DNA from: Apophysomyces variabilis | Lineage: Eukaryota; Mucoromycota; Mucoromycetes; Mucorales; Mucoraceae | NCBI GenBank assembly: GCA_002749535.1 | Contig: MZZL01000409.1 | Coordinates: 1,547,527 to 1,611,526, forward strand | Length of the DNA: 64,000 nucleotides | Direction: 5' to 3' | Shown here: piece by piece, positions 3,864 through 64,000 of the stretch | Numbering within the stretch: position 1 is the first letter of the stretch | Layout: each line of letters starts with the position of its first letter | The notes under the pieces: model-generated | What the model saw: only the letters and a program-made list of their open reading frames with translations | What the model was told of the DNA's origin: nothing | Databases searched by the model: none | Program-made: the position numbers and the translations under genes

Positions 3864-4624
3864 TAAGAAAAATAGCGCGTTGGACGTCTTGTCGTTTGCC
3901 CTAATTTGTAGAAAATTCTGTTTGTGATCATGTTACTGTTGGCATATCATAAACCACGGGGTGGACGATAAGTTGTATGATACGTTTCGGCTTCTCGGCC
4001 CAAACTAGGATTATGCTGTTGAAAGCAACTGACCGGAGATAGCCACTGCCAGCAAATACAGGTGCGGCAACTTGTTTGATCACAAGGAGTAGTCATTGTC
4101 TAGAAGCGGCCGACCGACACACACAGTACCAATCGGAAACTGACAAGCCAACCGATCAAATCGGGAACAGCACAATAGTTTGCGATGAACATCTCTACGT
4201 CTTACGATTCTATATTACTTGATCGCCATCATGTCTGCTTCTAGGAAACATTTTCTGCCACCACAAACTGTTTGATTAACTTTGAATATGAAGACGTCGC
4301 ACCGAAATTCTGTACCTTCGGATGTTACTCCGTCCGTCGCAGAAAATGATCTATTTAACAGTTTCATGTATAATATCAGCAAGGCACGGGACCATAAGTA
4401 TTACCAATGTCTCATATGAAGCTAACGCCCCTATATAATCTGGATAGCCACTAGCCATTTTTCGTTATATGCTCGGGTGATGCATGGTCGACGTGTTCGC
4501 ATACTCATATAGTGATAATGATAGGTTACTAGTGTTAAACAGACGAAATGGCTCAGGATGATGTTTAAGAATTATCCTTGCTTACCCTTACCTGCATGGC
4601 TAAATATGCTTTTAATTTTTCATA
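3864..4624. other. intergenic, no gene recognised
   Basis: No open frame with coding character and no RNA gene was seen. The sequence is mixed AT-rich DNA with stops in all frames, between the methyltransferase and the stray rRNA fragment. Confidence 0.5.
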
Positions 4625-4860
4625 TTCCCTTAACGAGGATCAATTGGAGGGCAAGTCTGGTGCCAGCAGCCGCGGTAATTCCAGCTCCAATAGCGTATAT
4701 TGAAGTTGCTGCAGTTAAAACGACCGAAGTCAAACCTTGGCGTTTAAGTTGGGCGGCCTAGTCTTCATTGACTAAGCTCGTCTTAAATGAACCATACTGA
4801 CGATCCATTTTGACAATTTATGTAATGATCCAAATAATACCTTAGGTATTGCTTTAATCA
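4625..4860 (+). pseudogene. 18S rRNA gene fragment (530-loop/V4 region), mutated
   Basis: The stretch from CCCTTAACGAGGATCAATTG, through GGAGGGCAAGTCTGGTGCCA and GCAGCCGCGGTAATTCCAGC, to AGCGTATATTGAAGTTGCTG is the universally conserved 18S small-subunit segment around the 530 loop. It differs from the eukaryotic consensus at a few normally invariant sites (GAGGATCAA for GAGGAACAA, TTGAAGTTGCTG for TTAAAGTTGTTG). What follows to about 4860 resembles the variable V4 region of a fungal 18S gene but becomes hard to follow. No flanking rRNA, ITS or 5.8S/28S sequence is seen, so it is an isolated, decaying fragment. The edges are approximate. Confidence 0.8.
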
Positions 4861-39165: not shown

Positions 39166-40561
39166 GATACTAACATACTACCACAGCACATGGTTGCGTT
39201 TGTTCATATTCCATATTTTCATAAGATAAAACCTCATTCCTGTTATAATATAAGTTTCTTTGCCGATATCGTTAACAGGTATACGACCTCGCTATGCTTC
39301 GGCAGCTAAAGAAGCAATTGAGCTTTGTGTTATTCAAACTTACATCTTACTTTGACCGACCCGCATGTGTTGCGTGGGGCTTACCTCTGCAACTTCTTTT
39401 TCTTCCTGGTGAATTCTGATTGTCTGATATCATGATGATGTGCTTGGTATATCGCCAGCCGCCTAATGTTTCTGCTATTGTTCAAATAGCGGTTCCACAC
39501 AGTATTGCAGGTTTTGCATCTGAGTACTGCGTGTAACGATTGAGACAGGGATACTTTGACATTCGTTAAACTTTCCTGTCCACAGTTGGAGCATATTTTG
39601 GACGTTCTATACTCACCAATCTCTGTTATCGCACAGAGACCTCGCTTTTATTTCTAATTTAGCTTGCGGTAGATTGTCGAGACCACTCCCATTCTTTTTC
39701 CTCACATGGTGTCGGGGAACATGGCATTTCCAAATGCAATGAGTGGTTTTTTCTGGGATCTAGTAGGTGTGACTTTTTCCACTTTGCCCTGAAAGAAAAG
39801 AATCAATAAATGACACTTTAGCATAACGTATAACTTACTCCATAGGGCGACTGCCAGTAAAAAATCGACAGTTAGAACCTTTCTGTCCGTTGGCTTTTTT
39901 CCTACGCCTGCTCTTACACCTTCGCCGTTACAAACGATGCCGTCGCCTATTCAAGCTATTTGTCTGCCAGTACAGTATTTGTCTCTATCGTTGATCAGCC
40001 TGGAGGCAAATACCTCCGTCGCTTCTTGACGTCCAATATACCTATTTGATACAGGTTATTACAATGTACACTTTGTTCCTCAGAATTGCTTTCCCTAACT
40101 ACCTACAAAACCGGAGACTAACAAGTCACTGATCGTAGAAGCGATAGATAGAATCGGCTAGTAACGCGAGAATGCTTTGGCCCCTTGGCAGCATAGGCAA
40201 GATCGCGGCAACAATAATAAAGTCTAGTACTTGCAGAAAGAGATCGCTATATGAAAACGATTGTTAGAGCAAAAGAGAACTGAAAGTTTGGACCAGACTA
40301 CGAAATTTGAGGACACCACAACCATGGAAAGGTTCACAGTTGCTAAATAGCGCAATGACACATACTGGCTGTGTAGTACTAAACTTTCCTGTTTAAGGTT
40401 TCACGATTTTTCTGCTTTGTATAATAGACCAGCTTTGGGCTTGCTTGCTTCGCAGCGCACCAATGCTTTCCACCACCCCACCCATCCATTTGATGTCAGG
40501 TATGGGTTACACTAGACACATATTGTATATTTCTCTATAAGCAAGCGCGTAAGTAATTTTT

Positions 40562-59222: not shown

Positions 59223-60929
59223 AGAACTAATTAGTATCCTATTTAATCCATACAAAAAGGTTTAAGTTGCCATCGATAAACAGGAAAATACCAGGTCTAT
59301 GTTGATGAAAACAATGATAACATTAACATTAGTTTATACTATTTAGTTTATATAAAGCGTATTTCAAGCAGTATTAGCATCCATAGTGCAGTAACTTACG
59401 TTTCATAGTGCTTTCGAGGAAGAAGAAAAAATCGCCGTAACATCATCGATTTAGAGGGTCCGGATCAAGACAAGCCGTACCTTTCTTCAGTTAGAATAAG
59501 CATACAGTTACCATTTGCTATTGATGTTGGGAATTATAACCACTGCATGAGTAAAATGACTAAAGAAATCGTCCTGTACTTCGACTCTCTGGATATTGCA
59601 CGTGAATTTGCTTCAACGAATAGCAGAACTTGGCGCTGACTAGGAAGAAATATATGTGTGCTAAAACTCAGATGCACTGTAATAGGTTTTTCACTGAAAA
59701 TAAGGGATACACCTTTCTAGCGAATACATTCCAATATCACAGTGCATTACTATTTGATAACCAGTCAATAGATAACGCCAACAGCCCCGAAAGAATCAGC
59801 CAGGATTGGAGAACTTCAAAAATGGCAACATCATATAACTCACGTAAAGGATAATGGTAAGCAGTCCCAGTACAACGAAACGCTTTGGTTAAGGAACCAT
59901 CAACTCATTCGCCATGCAACAAATGAATAGCTGTCACACTATCCCCTGAGAATATTTGGTCAAAGTGACCATATACTAAAACTATCGGTGAGTTGTCCTT
60001 GCTAGGATTGTCGCATGTATATTTCTATTGTTTCTTGTAGACAACATTATCGAATAAATAGTATTTTTTTATCGATTTGGTTGCTATACACCTTTTTCTA
60101 ATCCTCTCCTGAAATCTTTTTGCTCCCAAATTAAAGAGACACTTTCTATGTACCGATATACCATCTAAGCAATTCCACTTAACGTAACTGATACTAAATT
60201 CTACGCGATAGATCTATATCACAGTTAGTGATAACACCCTGTTTGTCTCATTCTGGAACAAATATTAGTTTATGTAAGTTCCTGTACACCTGTCACTGTA
60301 TACAATGTTGACAAAAGATAGGTAGCCTATCAAGGTCCATCAGCCATATTGTTATTCTGCCTTCTTTTTCTCCAATAAAATCCTTAAAGTCTTTGCAACA
60401 AGGTAAGAAAAAGCCCTTACTAAACGTTTAGCTAATAGAACGACCATAGACGTCAACACCATGTTTATATATTTAGTTTTATTTGCGATCAAAGACAAAG
60501 GTAGCAAAGCAAAGTGTAATATACTATTCCCATTCTGGAAAAGCAGAGAGCGTTTCCATGAAATGTGGAGATAATTATGAATAGCTCTTTCTTCTCATTT
60601 ATATAACTAATTATGTGTGTCATAGGAGGAAAAGCCGAAAAGACGAAGAAAAGCTCGCCAAATTGTCTCGGGGTATCCGAACTCCTCCGATGCGTCAGTT
60701 GACATTTTATATCCTGAGCGGCGAGCGCCTGGTCAGGCAGCAACCCGTCCAGCTTTTGGGTTAAATACTTGAGGTTAGGCAAAACCAACAAGCTATACCA
60801 TTATCATGAATTATTTTCGTATCGCTTTTTCATTCCTATTTCTTTTTGTTTTCAGACTTTCTGTTCGGATTTTTAATGCTTTCTACAGTCGGTTCTTGCA
60901 AGGTAATTTGCGCCAGCTAAAAAGTACTT
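59223..60929. other. intergenic with one coding-like stretch
   Basis: About 1.7 kb with no complete gene. At 60627-60770 a plus-strand stretch, following a splice-like ATAG, encodes KPKRRRKARQIVSGYPNSSD then ILYPERRAPGQAATRPAFGL and a stop. No upstream exon could be found, so it is left unassigned. Confidence 0.35.
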
Positions 60930-61163
60930 TTACGACAGCTTTGGCTTTGGATCTCTCTTTTTCACAGGTGCAGACTTTGCTGGAGCCCTCTCCCTTTGGT
61001 TCTTGTAGTACAACTTAGCGTAATTCTGAGCTGTTCTTTTTTTGATACCCACTTGTCTACCCGCAGCTGCTGCAGCCTTTCCTTCATACGTTACTAGATT
61101 GAGCAGCATAGCTAACTGTTCGTCAGTGTAATTCCGATATGTATCGCGTTTATCTTTGCGACG
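60930..61163 (-). pseudogene. helix-turn-helix (homeodomain-like) transposase fragment
   Basis: The minus strand encodes YRNYTDEQLAMLLNLVTYEG, KAAAAAGRQVGIKKRTAQNY and AKLYYKNQ, then a basic tail and TAA at 60932-60930. This is the helix-turn-helix pattern found at the N-terminus of Tc1/mariner-type and related fungal transposable-element proteins. No ATG starts the domain and no catalytic part follows, so it is a fragment. It lies just upstream of the Fanzor-like gene in the opposite orientation. Confidence 0.5.
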
Positions 61164-61650
61164 TCAAACTTTAATTGCTCTTCGGAAGGTTTGTTGCGAG
61201 TCGCTTGCAAGCACGCTTATAGAAGTATTGCGATTGCACAATCAACAAATTGTAACGTACTGTAGCAAAAATGGTGGATGAAAATAATATATGAAGATGA
61301 TCCAGAACTTTCAATGCAATGCGCAGTATTATACAGACAACTATCATGAACTTGTCGATGGGCAAATCGTTCCTTATCTGACTTTAGCCTTGGGTAAGGT
61401 CAATACAATCAGCTAATTTTATGTGAAACCTATCTTCGGGCGACTGCTAGTTTCCACTGTCATGCAGGATAAATGCTGTCATTACAAGAAAAAAAAAAGA
61501 AATGGTTTAATGTGAGTACACCTGAGCGTTATCATCTTTTCTTCCTTATTATTTCTTCTTTTGCAGTTGAATCCATCATGGATGATTTTGCGTTTTATAT
61601 GCGTTCGCTTATCTAGTCTTTTTTCATGTTGTCTCTGACCGCCTTGACAG
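61164..61650. other. upstream flank of Fanzor-like gene
   Basis: About 490 bp, AT-rich, with a poly-A run at 61488-61499. No further domain was found. The true 5' exon or start of the next gene may lie here (ATG 61579 opens only 12 codons). Confidence 0.35.
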
Positions 61651-64000
61651 GCAAAGACTACATCCAGAAGAAAAAGGAAAAAAAAGCCGCTGATATGGAA
61701 TTACAGAAGCAGCTACAAGAGGAGGAAAGGTTAAAAAAAGGTACGTACACATCCTCATAAAAGAAAGTTAACTGACAGCAACCAATCTCAGCAAATCCGT
61801 CTCAGTGTANNNNNNNNNNNNNNNNNNNNNNNNNNNNNNNNNNNNNNNNNNNNNNNNNNNNNNNNNNNNNNNNNNNNNNNNNNNNNNNNNNNNNNNNNNN
61901 NNNNNNNNNNNNNNNNNNNNNNNNNNNNNNNNNNNNNNNNNNNNNNNNNNNNNNNNNNNNNNNNNNNNNNNNNNNNNNNNNNNNNNNNNNNNNNNNNNNN
62001 NNNNNNNNNNNNNNNNNNNNNNNNNNNNNNNNNNNNNNNNNNNNNNNNNNNNNNNNNNNNNNNNNNNNNNNNNNNNNNNNNNNNNNNNNNNNNNNNNNNN
62101 NNNNNNNNNNNNNNNNNNNNNNNNNNNNNNNNNNNNNNNNNNNNNNNNNNNNNNNNNNNNNNNNNNNNNNNNNNNNNNNNNNNNNNNNNNNNNNNNNNNN
62201 NNNNNNNNNNNNNNNNNNNNNNNNNNNNNNNNNNNNNNNNNNNNNNNNNNNNNNNNNNNNNNNNNNNNNNNNNNNNNNNNNNNNNNNNNNNNNNNNNNNN
62301 NNNNNNNNNNNNNNNNNNNNNNNNNNNNNNNNNNNNNNNNNNNNNNNNNNNNNNNNNNNNNNNNNNNNNNNNNNNNNNNNNNNNNNNNNNNNNNNNNNNN
62401 NNNNNNNNNNNNNNNNNNNNNNNNNNNNNNNNNNNNNNNNNNNNNNNNNNNNNNNNNNNNNNNNNNNNNNNNNNNTGATTGAACCGGATTTGTCTTTAGT
62501 GGCTATTGTCGATAAGATTTGTGATGATTTAGAGGCACTGACGCCTAAGCCTGCAACGCAGCAAGCCATATCGGCATCTCCTGGCGCGTATATTCCAACG
62601 TTAAAATACATCCTGTCTTCCTATGAAGAAGAGCATAAGATCGTTGCTGCTTCCGAAAAAAGTTCTAGTGATACAACTCTGCCTCGTCTTTTCTCGATTT
62701 CATCAAAACCAATTTGCAGGTGGCGTTTTGTTTCAACAAACGCCAAACTTTTGGCGACTCTGTTATCCATTCGAGAACCAACACAGCCGAGCGAATACCC
62801 ACGAGTATTTTTTGAAGCCCTTGATCTTACTCGTTTCGGATTTAATGGGTATGGGAAATAGCGATAGGTACCGTTAATTTCGAACACTCACTCTTTGTTA
62901 ATATATACGTACAGCTTGGGAGATTTTGCCGGGAATGTAAATCATCGTTTCGCATGCAAAATTCTTTCTGATGGATTTGCAGTAAATCTAGTTTTTGCAA
63001 GAAAACAAAAGGAAAAGGTGCCGGCAACGGAAATTGACCTGGAGGATCTTACCTTTGATGAAGTCCAGCAGTGGTTCGAACCGTGGGCCGTGGATCCGGG
63101 GTTGAATCAAATATACACAGCTGCAGACGGTAATGGCTCACAGCGGCATCAAGTACGCCGTGTGTCGACAAAAGAGTATTATGCCATGACTGGCTCTACG
63201 CGGAGAGGGAAGCAACTCGAAAAACGGAAGGATGCGGCGGGTGTCACTCATATTGAGACTGGTTTAGAAAGTTGTAAAACAGCGTCATCAGAGCAATATC
63301 ATCAGTTCGTGGAGTGCTTTGCCCAGAATTTTCCAGTATTGACAGCTTTTTACGGGCCCGACATGGCTGAGAAGCGTTTCCACAATTACCAGGGAGTACA
63401 ATGTGCTCGTGAAGAGCTCGTTAATGTGTTAGTCAACGGTGGAAAAAAGTACTGCAAGCAGCGGCGAAGAAAGACTCGAAAGAATAGACGAAAGAGGAAG
63501 AGAAAGACTCTGAAACGGCGAGAACAAAAGAAGCTGAAATGGCGATCAGGGTCAGAGACTAAGTGCAAAGTACTGAAATAAGTGATATTAACGAAATCTT
63601 CTAACCTAGACCACAAGAATCTGGAATCAGATCAACGCAAAATAAACCGCACCCAAGCACAAAAAAGTCATCTAAAGGTATTCAAGCAAGCAAGAAAATA
63701 CCATTAATTGTATTCGGATCAGCAATGTTTGGTGCGAGTGGACATGCCTCAAGAAAGGGCAAGCGTGCTGCGTTAGTCAATCCCTGTTGAAACATGCTAA
63801 AGAGAAGAGAAAGGAGAGGGGAATTGATTGCAACGACAGTCGATGAATTTTACACGTCTCAGGTTCGTTGTCATTTGCTTCGTATGTACCCTCATGGTTT
63901 ATCTATAGATGTGCAACATCTGCCTTCAGAGAGGGCTGGAGAAAGTCCCCATATCCGATTCTGTGTCCCACCATGGTGTAGTAGTTTGCAAACACTGCCG
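61651..64000 (+). CDS. Fanzor-like protein (eukaryotic TnpB / Cas12f1-like TNB domain), partial
   Basis: Putative RNA-guided endonuclease of the Fanzor/TnpB family. The 5' exon (61651-61740, DYIQKKKEKKAADMELQKQL) is Lys/Glu-rich and is linked only by position across the gap. After the gap comes TLPRLFSISSKPICRWRFV, then an intron 62849-62914 joining LDLTRFGFNG to LGDFAGNVNHRFACKILSDG. The RuvC-I-like segment follows: EVQQWFEPWAVDPGLNQIYT (Asp in VDPG), then RRVSTKEYYAMTGSTRRGKQ and REELVNVLVNGGKKYCKQ, a Lys/Arg-rich stretch, and a RuvC-II-like strand IPLIVFGSAMFG. Next, TTVDEFYTSQ joins across intron 63863-63908 to MCNIC ... VVVCKHC, a CxxC/CxxC zinc ribbon. RuvC-III must lie beyond 64000. 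The intron near 63550-63605 is uncertain, and an in-frame TGA lies at 63788-63790. Confidence 0.72.
61810..62475. other. assembly gap (666 N)
   Basis: A run of Ns of 666 bases inside the Fanzor-like locus. The N-terminal part of the protein cannot be read. The run may be of estimated length. Confidence 0.99.

Follow-up and report, generated by a model that had tools for sequence, protein, structure and literature searches.

The closest described counterparts of the locus reported here are the SpuFz1/SPu-1 elements of Spizellomyces punctatus, which are reported to carry a Fanzor1 gene, to be present in many copies and to have inverted ends with TA (PMC10432273, PMC3627910). These elements are described as bearing a conserved CA on the left of their left repeat, which agrees with the CATA that the enzyme requires as its TAM, and their guide RNA is reported to come from the region between the stop codon and the right repeat (PMC10432273). 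Fanzor1 genes inside Tc1/mariner elements (PGv-1, PUl-1 and PUl-4) were reported in 2013, PUl-4 being described as a Fanzor-only element with mariner-like ends and TA, and Mucoralean Fanzor1 families are on record from the same year, with ten in Mucor, four in Rhizopus and three in Phycomyces (PMC3627910). Another Mucoralean Fanzor1, PpFz1 of Parasitella parasitica, has a solved structure, according to its report (PMC11423790).

The window analysed here, a 64,000-nucleotide stretch of the genome of the Mucoralean fungus Apophysomyces variabilis, very probably contains, towards its right end, a decayed Fanzor1 gene copy in a non-autonomous Tc1/mariner-type DNA transposon. The copies of this element (the window family) are like SpuFz1/SPu-1 in carrying a Fanzor1 gene, in their number and in their inverted ends with TA, and they share with SpuFz1, as described, a non-coding stretch between the stop codon and the right end. 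Unlike SpuFz1 in that description, the family has introns and a longer tail (~230 nt), it bears TC rather than CA to the left of the left repeat (PMC10432273), and an alignment places DPG in its RuvC-I motif against DPN in SpuFz1. It resembles PUl-4 in being a Fanzor-only element, and its mariner-like ends set it apart from the Mucoralean ROr-4, PBl-3 and MCi-4, which are given as MuDR-like with 9-bp duplications (PMC3627910). PpFz1 is not named among the PDB matches of the window protein, whether searched as a single sequence or as a profile. The nearest database protein is the hypothetical protein DFQ29_001721 (P0001) of Apophysomyces sp. BC1021, with 48% identity over 59% of the query, the sole passing match among 7998 scored candidates of a large protein database; it is a partial record that has no Pfam label and, unlike the window protein, misses the ribbon part. 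A housekeeping GTPase encoded in the same genome has 100% identity, over 90% of its length, to one of Apophysomyces ossiformis, which makes that species or a near relative the most likely host. No report of a Fanzor in Apophysomyces was found in the open-licence literature; the kind of gene is known, and its members in this genome are new.

The gene is encoded on the forward strand and is interrupted by an assembly gap of 666 N (61810..62475). Two tentative exons precede the gap. One, at 61291..61393 (MKMIQNF...TLAL), is an open frame followed by GTAAGG that has similar frames in other copies and a putative start; the other, at 61651..61740 (KDYIQKKKEKK...LQEEERLKK), has AG before it and GT after it, and its peptide recurs in the copy C91b and is frameshifted in C88. 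The N-terminal part of the window copy lies in the gap and is judged from the other copies, which encode there CxxC..C knuckles and the N-terminal region that follows them. After the gap, four exons (62478-62848, 62915-63562, 63610-63862 and 63909-64142) are linked by short GT..AG introns, and their frames were checked against 20 copies; the first of them reads IEPDLSLVAIV...LTRFGFNG and has GT after it. The second, bounded by AG and GT, aligns with SpuFz1 and holds the RuvC-I motif VDPGLNQIYT (63090-63119, catalytic Asp codon at 63093-63095) together with KEYY, GSTRRGK and NVLVNGGKK. The third contains IVFGSAMFG (63707-63733) and VDEFYTSQ (63839-63862, alternative catalytic Glu at 63845-63847), the latter separated by a 46-base GT..AG intron from MCNIC, which opens the zinc ribbon at 63909. 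The last exon, with CKHC at 63987-63998, crosses the window end at 64000 and was followed on the same contig in locus L009 (2936-3169), where RTLWQRD continues the frame, with the RuvC-III Asp at 64017-64019 and the stop codon at 64140-64142. Re-reading of the sequence recovered every motif string listed by the first-pass annotation, in the order and on the strand that it gave, and the downstream RuvC-III Asp, which it had proposed to look for, is thus in place.

The search of the spliced protein with family profiles, also proposed there, gave a match to the TNB domain PF07282 (Cas12f1-like TNB/OrfB zinc ribbon) over residues 414-469, with an E value of 4.2e-9 and 36.9 bits against a cut-off of 26.3. 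Since this match exceeds the cut-off and the same DNA is found at 21 other near-full-length genomic places, the Fanzor motif set is not due to chance. Counted from the DPG, the window protein contains the pattern D-x(125,275)-[TS][TS]-x-x-C4-x(5,50)-RD, reported as the Fanzor signature (PMC3627910). DPG in RuvC-I is likewise given as a Fanzor feature, together with a glutamate placed six residues ahead of the zinc finger (PMC10711439). In the spliced numbering, DPG is found at residue 184 and the ExxxxxxCxxC arrangement at residue 420 (EFYTSQMCNIC), its Glu six residues ahead of the ribbon, and the RuvC-III Asp lies six residues past the ribbon (CxxC-x21-CxxC-x6-D), beyond the window end. Judged from these motifs, the catalytic glutamate is the alternative one in VDEFYTSQ. 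The string IVFGSAMFG, which had been annotated as RuvC-II-like and sits at what we take to be the canonical RuvC-II place, contains no glutamate, and its catalytic assignment is withdrawn.

A single-sequence search of the PDB returned SpuFz1 (E 0.006) and GtFz1 (E 0.071), and a five-row profile returned SpuFz1 (E 2.2e-8), LaTranC (E 1.1e-7) and, more weakly, several TnpB/Cas12 chains; the profile alignment with SpuFz1 pairs vDEf with lDEy and WqRD with WnRD. Because LaTranC and TnpB/Cas12 chains match as well, the PDB profile alone cannot separate Fanzor from TnpB. The setting is not that of Fanzor2/IS607, as the element has inverted ends with TA and its nearest solved matches are Fanzor1 proteins. 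Some Fanzor2s are reported in inverted-end elements too (PMC10711439), so this setting by itself does not exclude Fanzor2. By HMM match, catalytic motifs, PDB profile match and transposon setting together, the window gene is assigned to Fanzor1, and the TnpB/Fanzor membership first read from the motifs is borne out.

The post-gap DNA has 22 near-full-length places in the genome, the window copy included, in addition to partial ones; the other 21 have 84-95% DNA identity to it. With at least 22 copies in the genome, the locus, which the first-pass annotation took for its strongest candidate for a special system, is not unique. The element is ~3.5 kb long (60886-64371). Its left end, TA followed by the left terminal inverted repeat TACAGTCGGTTCTTGCAAGGTAATTTGCG (60884..60912, + strand), is of a type common to the loci L050 and L048, and homology to L050 begins at 60882; a 49-bp stretch at 60891-60939 has 13 further genome match rows at 87-93% identity. 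The right end, outside the window, is at 64371 and is followed by TA at 64372-64373 (together L009 3398-3400). In all 20 fetched copies the right end reads AACAGTA or a one-base variant of it, after which the flanks differ, except in one pair that shares its flank. TA is present at the right end in 20/20 copies and at the left end in 12/13, the remaining one having CA. The commonest left end of the family is TACAGTTTATTG, and the type borne by the window copy, L050 and L048 resembles the left ends of another family, F3 (locus L071). A pattern made of the repeats of the two ends has 89 matches in the genome, and its reversed control has 0. A search for empty sites with 12 joined flank pairs (10 of the window family and 2 of a further family, B), in which 40 of 161 candidates were scored, did not recover any, and for this reason the TA is not proven to be a true duplication. 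Matches of several right flanks to repeats, starting ~9-12 nt onward, were set aside as repeat-edge noise; in the copy C95c the similarity, by eye, runs nearer to the TA. To the left of the element, window positions 59614-60896 are themselves repeated (C119, C95:1324280 and C59), in part in opposite orientation, and the junction of this repeat with the Fanzor element is common to the L048 copy. Several copies also have an inverted-repeat insert near their left end (~278 bp with ~73-bp arms; L038-L041, L043 and L044, upstream of the copies C91a, C30a, C75, C95c, C91b and C94), whose middle is found in either orientation between copies.

The transposase content of the window element is limited to a remnant of an N-terminal helix-turn-helix, a 77-aa open frame at 60930..61163 on the minus strand, opposite to the Fanzor gene, with a sub-threshold HTH_66 match (E 0.011). 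This remnant has 28 genome match rows, itself included, and one related frame, outside the element, contains a DDE_3 domain (PF13358, E 3.9e-18) with N at what we assume to be the place of the first catalytic D. None of the end patterns tested occurs in the locus of this relative, and no intact transposase with window-type ends was found. Taken as a whole, the setting fits that of a non-autonomous Tc1/mariner-type element.

The window copy does not have an intact open reading frame. An in-frame TGA at 63788-63790 (+ strand), which is position 401 of the 502 in the reading frame shared by the aligned copies, precedes the zinc ribbon and RuvC-III, so the copy is read as the relic of a Fanzor1 member, which should be inert, and the working RNA-guided nuclease suggested by the first-pass annotation is not supported for it. 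It could be argued that the TGA comes from an error in the assembly, is bypassed by readthrough or lies in an intron that escaped recognition: the frame is open over the other post-gap exons, where two deletions relative to other copies, of 2 and 1 bases, cancel each other, and 63 GT..AG pairs with spacings of 40-250 bases enclose the TGA, 24 of which have a length divisible by three. A functional window copy is nevertheless very improbable, as the same position is a stop in 3/20 copies, the window copy included, which argues against random error, and the stretch around it is coding in other copies. Moreover, a stop or frameshift is present in 19/20 copies checked over the four post-gap exons, a state of decay that sets the family apart from the SpuFz1 elements, and omega among copies is ~0.67, a mild bias against amino-acid change and nothing stronger. 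The other 19 copies diverge from the majority by 1.8-2.6% in the post-gap exons, 2.0-3.4% in the introns and 2.6% in the tail, and by more, with a wide spread, in the stretches before the gap (4.0-6.0%); the window copy diverges by 2.4-4.8% in the post-gap exons and by 6.1% in its tail. Such a pattern of divergence and broken frames is what would be expected of a burst with subsequent decay. The gene stands between two apparent host genes, presumably, to its left, a long coiled-coil frame and, to its right, a CDC6/ORC1-like gene, a position that could suggest a TnpB-like gene domesticated by the host and kept for a cellular role. Such a role has a negligible probability, given that the gene lies within transposon ends, is one of at least 22 copies, and belongs to a set whose post-gap exons, introns and tail diverge about equally.

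The decayed transposon family thus described carries a bias at its left flank. Of the 22 window-family copies, 13 have a left end that could be read, and in 13/13 a C immediately precedes the terminal TA (or, in one copy, CA), the two flanking bases being TC in 11 and CC in 2. At the mirrored place on the right, C is found in 6/19 copies (Fisher p 0.00012 versus the left). The window copy, with the flank TTTC, was left out of the count because its upstream junction is common to L048; C20:28231 (flank TG, not assigned to a family) and C94:2153392 (an F3 right end) were also left out of the flank counts, C59:474073, a window-family copy, out of that of F3, and L032, whose flank is the same as that of L027, out of the right-side count. 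In family F3, which is taken as Fanzor on its motifs (its Pfam match, 18.4 bits, is below the cut-off of 26.3), the left flank has T in 10/11 and TT in 10/11, and A follows the right end in 4 of the 6 paired ends (6/11), which were matched to left ends by position only. In family L12 (locus L012), T is present in 6/6 left flanks and in 1/6 right ends. The left flanks of family B are TG, TC and AT, with no motif at n=3. As SpuFz1 elements have CA to the left of their repeat and their enzyme the TAM CATA, the flank can be read as a TAM, and TCTA may be that of the window family, a candidate held here as a prediction by analogy and not as a result.

It is proposed, tentatively and with close to an even chance of being right, that Fanzor families which share and exchange their ends each retain a left motif of their own (TC-TA in the window family, TT-TA in F3, T-TA in L12) and lack a corresponding bias on the right, that this motif is a TAM which would follow the gene and not the repeat, and that insertions at other TA sites would have been lost, unguarded by the nuclease. 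The flanking C, or T in the other families, may instead be a part of the element or a preference of the transposase, a reading that is a real possibility although below an even chance. It would agree with the fact that the search for empty sites gave none to place the boundary at the left flank, with the right-side bias of F3 (A in 4/6) and with the TG, TC and AT (n=3) of family B, in which the commonest left repeat is also found and no motif is seen. On the other hand, the second flank base varies in 2/13 copies (CC), above the divergence inside the element (~2.5%), and a symmetric transposase should bias both sides, whereas the window family shows no right bias. The repeat and the motif are also separable: the left repeat of L050 is F3-like and yet its flank is the TC of its own, window, family, F3 itself having TT in 10/11, and C flanks 13/13 window-family copies versus 1/3 in B despite the shared repeat (p 0.025). 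For the 230-base tail between the stop codon and the right end, the genome search gave 41 match rows. This is where the SpuFz1 RNA is reported to arise (PMC10432273), and a guide RNA just past the window end, as the first-pass annotation had suggested, is plausible by position only; the structural, covariation and Rfam support was not found. Six single folds of the tail were no better than shuffles (z -0.6 to +0.7), RNAalifold on 14 tail sequences gave a covariation term of +0.64 with a double change in 1/28 pairs, and Rfam had no match up to E 0.5. A tail held by selection as a guide-RNA gene seemed a strong candidate at first: in 16/16 family-B-type loci (L051 and 15 others), the tail is more similar to the window family than the last-exon stretch is (mean identity 0.84 vs 0.62). 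It was weakened by the distances within family B. When L051 is compared with each of the 15 other B loci, the exon stretch, here a fixed 260 bases before the tail that may include some intron, is better conserved in 12 and equal in 1, and the tail is ahead in 2 (L060 and L063); furthermore, seven diverged B tails (0.75-0.85) are less similar to that of L051 than the tail of the window family is (0.86). On account of these distances, exchange of 3' ends between Fanzor families is the probable explanation of the tail likeness, and a conserved guide-RNA gene is unlikely to account for it.

For the active ancestor of this decayed Fanzor1 transposon, we infer a model in line with published Fanzors. 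The protein, with its RuvC residues (DPG, alternative Glu and RuvC-III Asp) and zinc ribbon, would bind an RNA from the 3' end of the element. The guide, formed by the last 14-15 nt of this RNA, would come from the host DNA to the right of the element. The complex would then cut DNA with a match to the guide beside the short left motif, candidate TCTA. As such a target would exist only at a site that the element has left, cutting would favour copying the element back into the vacated site, and mobilisation itself would be provided in trans by a DDE_3 transposase encoded elsewhere.

Further traces of this kind of gene are present in the genome. A second, broken Fanzor relic lies in the window at 39465-39674 (- strand), with zinc-ribbon motifs and two stops, and by motif it is like the family of L011 (C108). 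Another Fanzor-like family is represented by a 279-aa open frame in L016 (2476-3315; Pfam 24.4 bits vs the cut-off of 26.3), with similar places on C27, C79, C95, C107, C110 and C119; five places score identically, and for that reason this family has perhaps expanded recently. About a dozen bases to the right of one Fanzor element, L024 contains a U6 snRNA copy (995-1115, - strand) followed by LINE-like sequence, as judged by eye. Elsewhere in the window, positions 4457-4812 (+ strand) have an Rfam match to eukaryotic SSU rRNA (82 bits); as model positions 4-1116 are squeezed into 356 bases, this is read as an SSU rRNA fragment with large deletions.

The window copy alone, being broken, would not matter. 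Fanzors, eukaryotic relatives of the CRISPR nucleases, are guided by RNA and are of interest to genome engineering, and the role that they play for their transposons is so far a matter of inference. The presence in one genome of several Fanzor families whose ends are related offers a test, from sequence only, of whether the nuclease selects the insertions that survive. Should the left-flank motifs be TAMs, they would be readable for enzymes that were never expressed, and the retention model would gain a comparative test.
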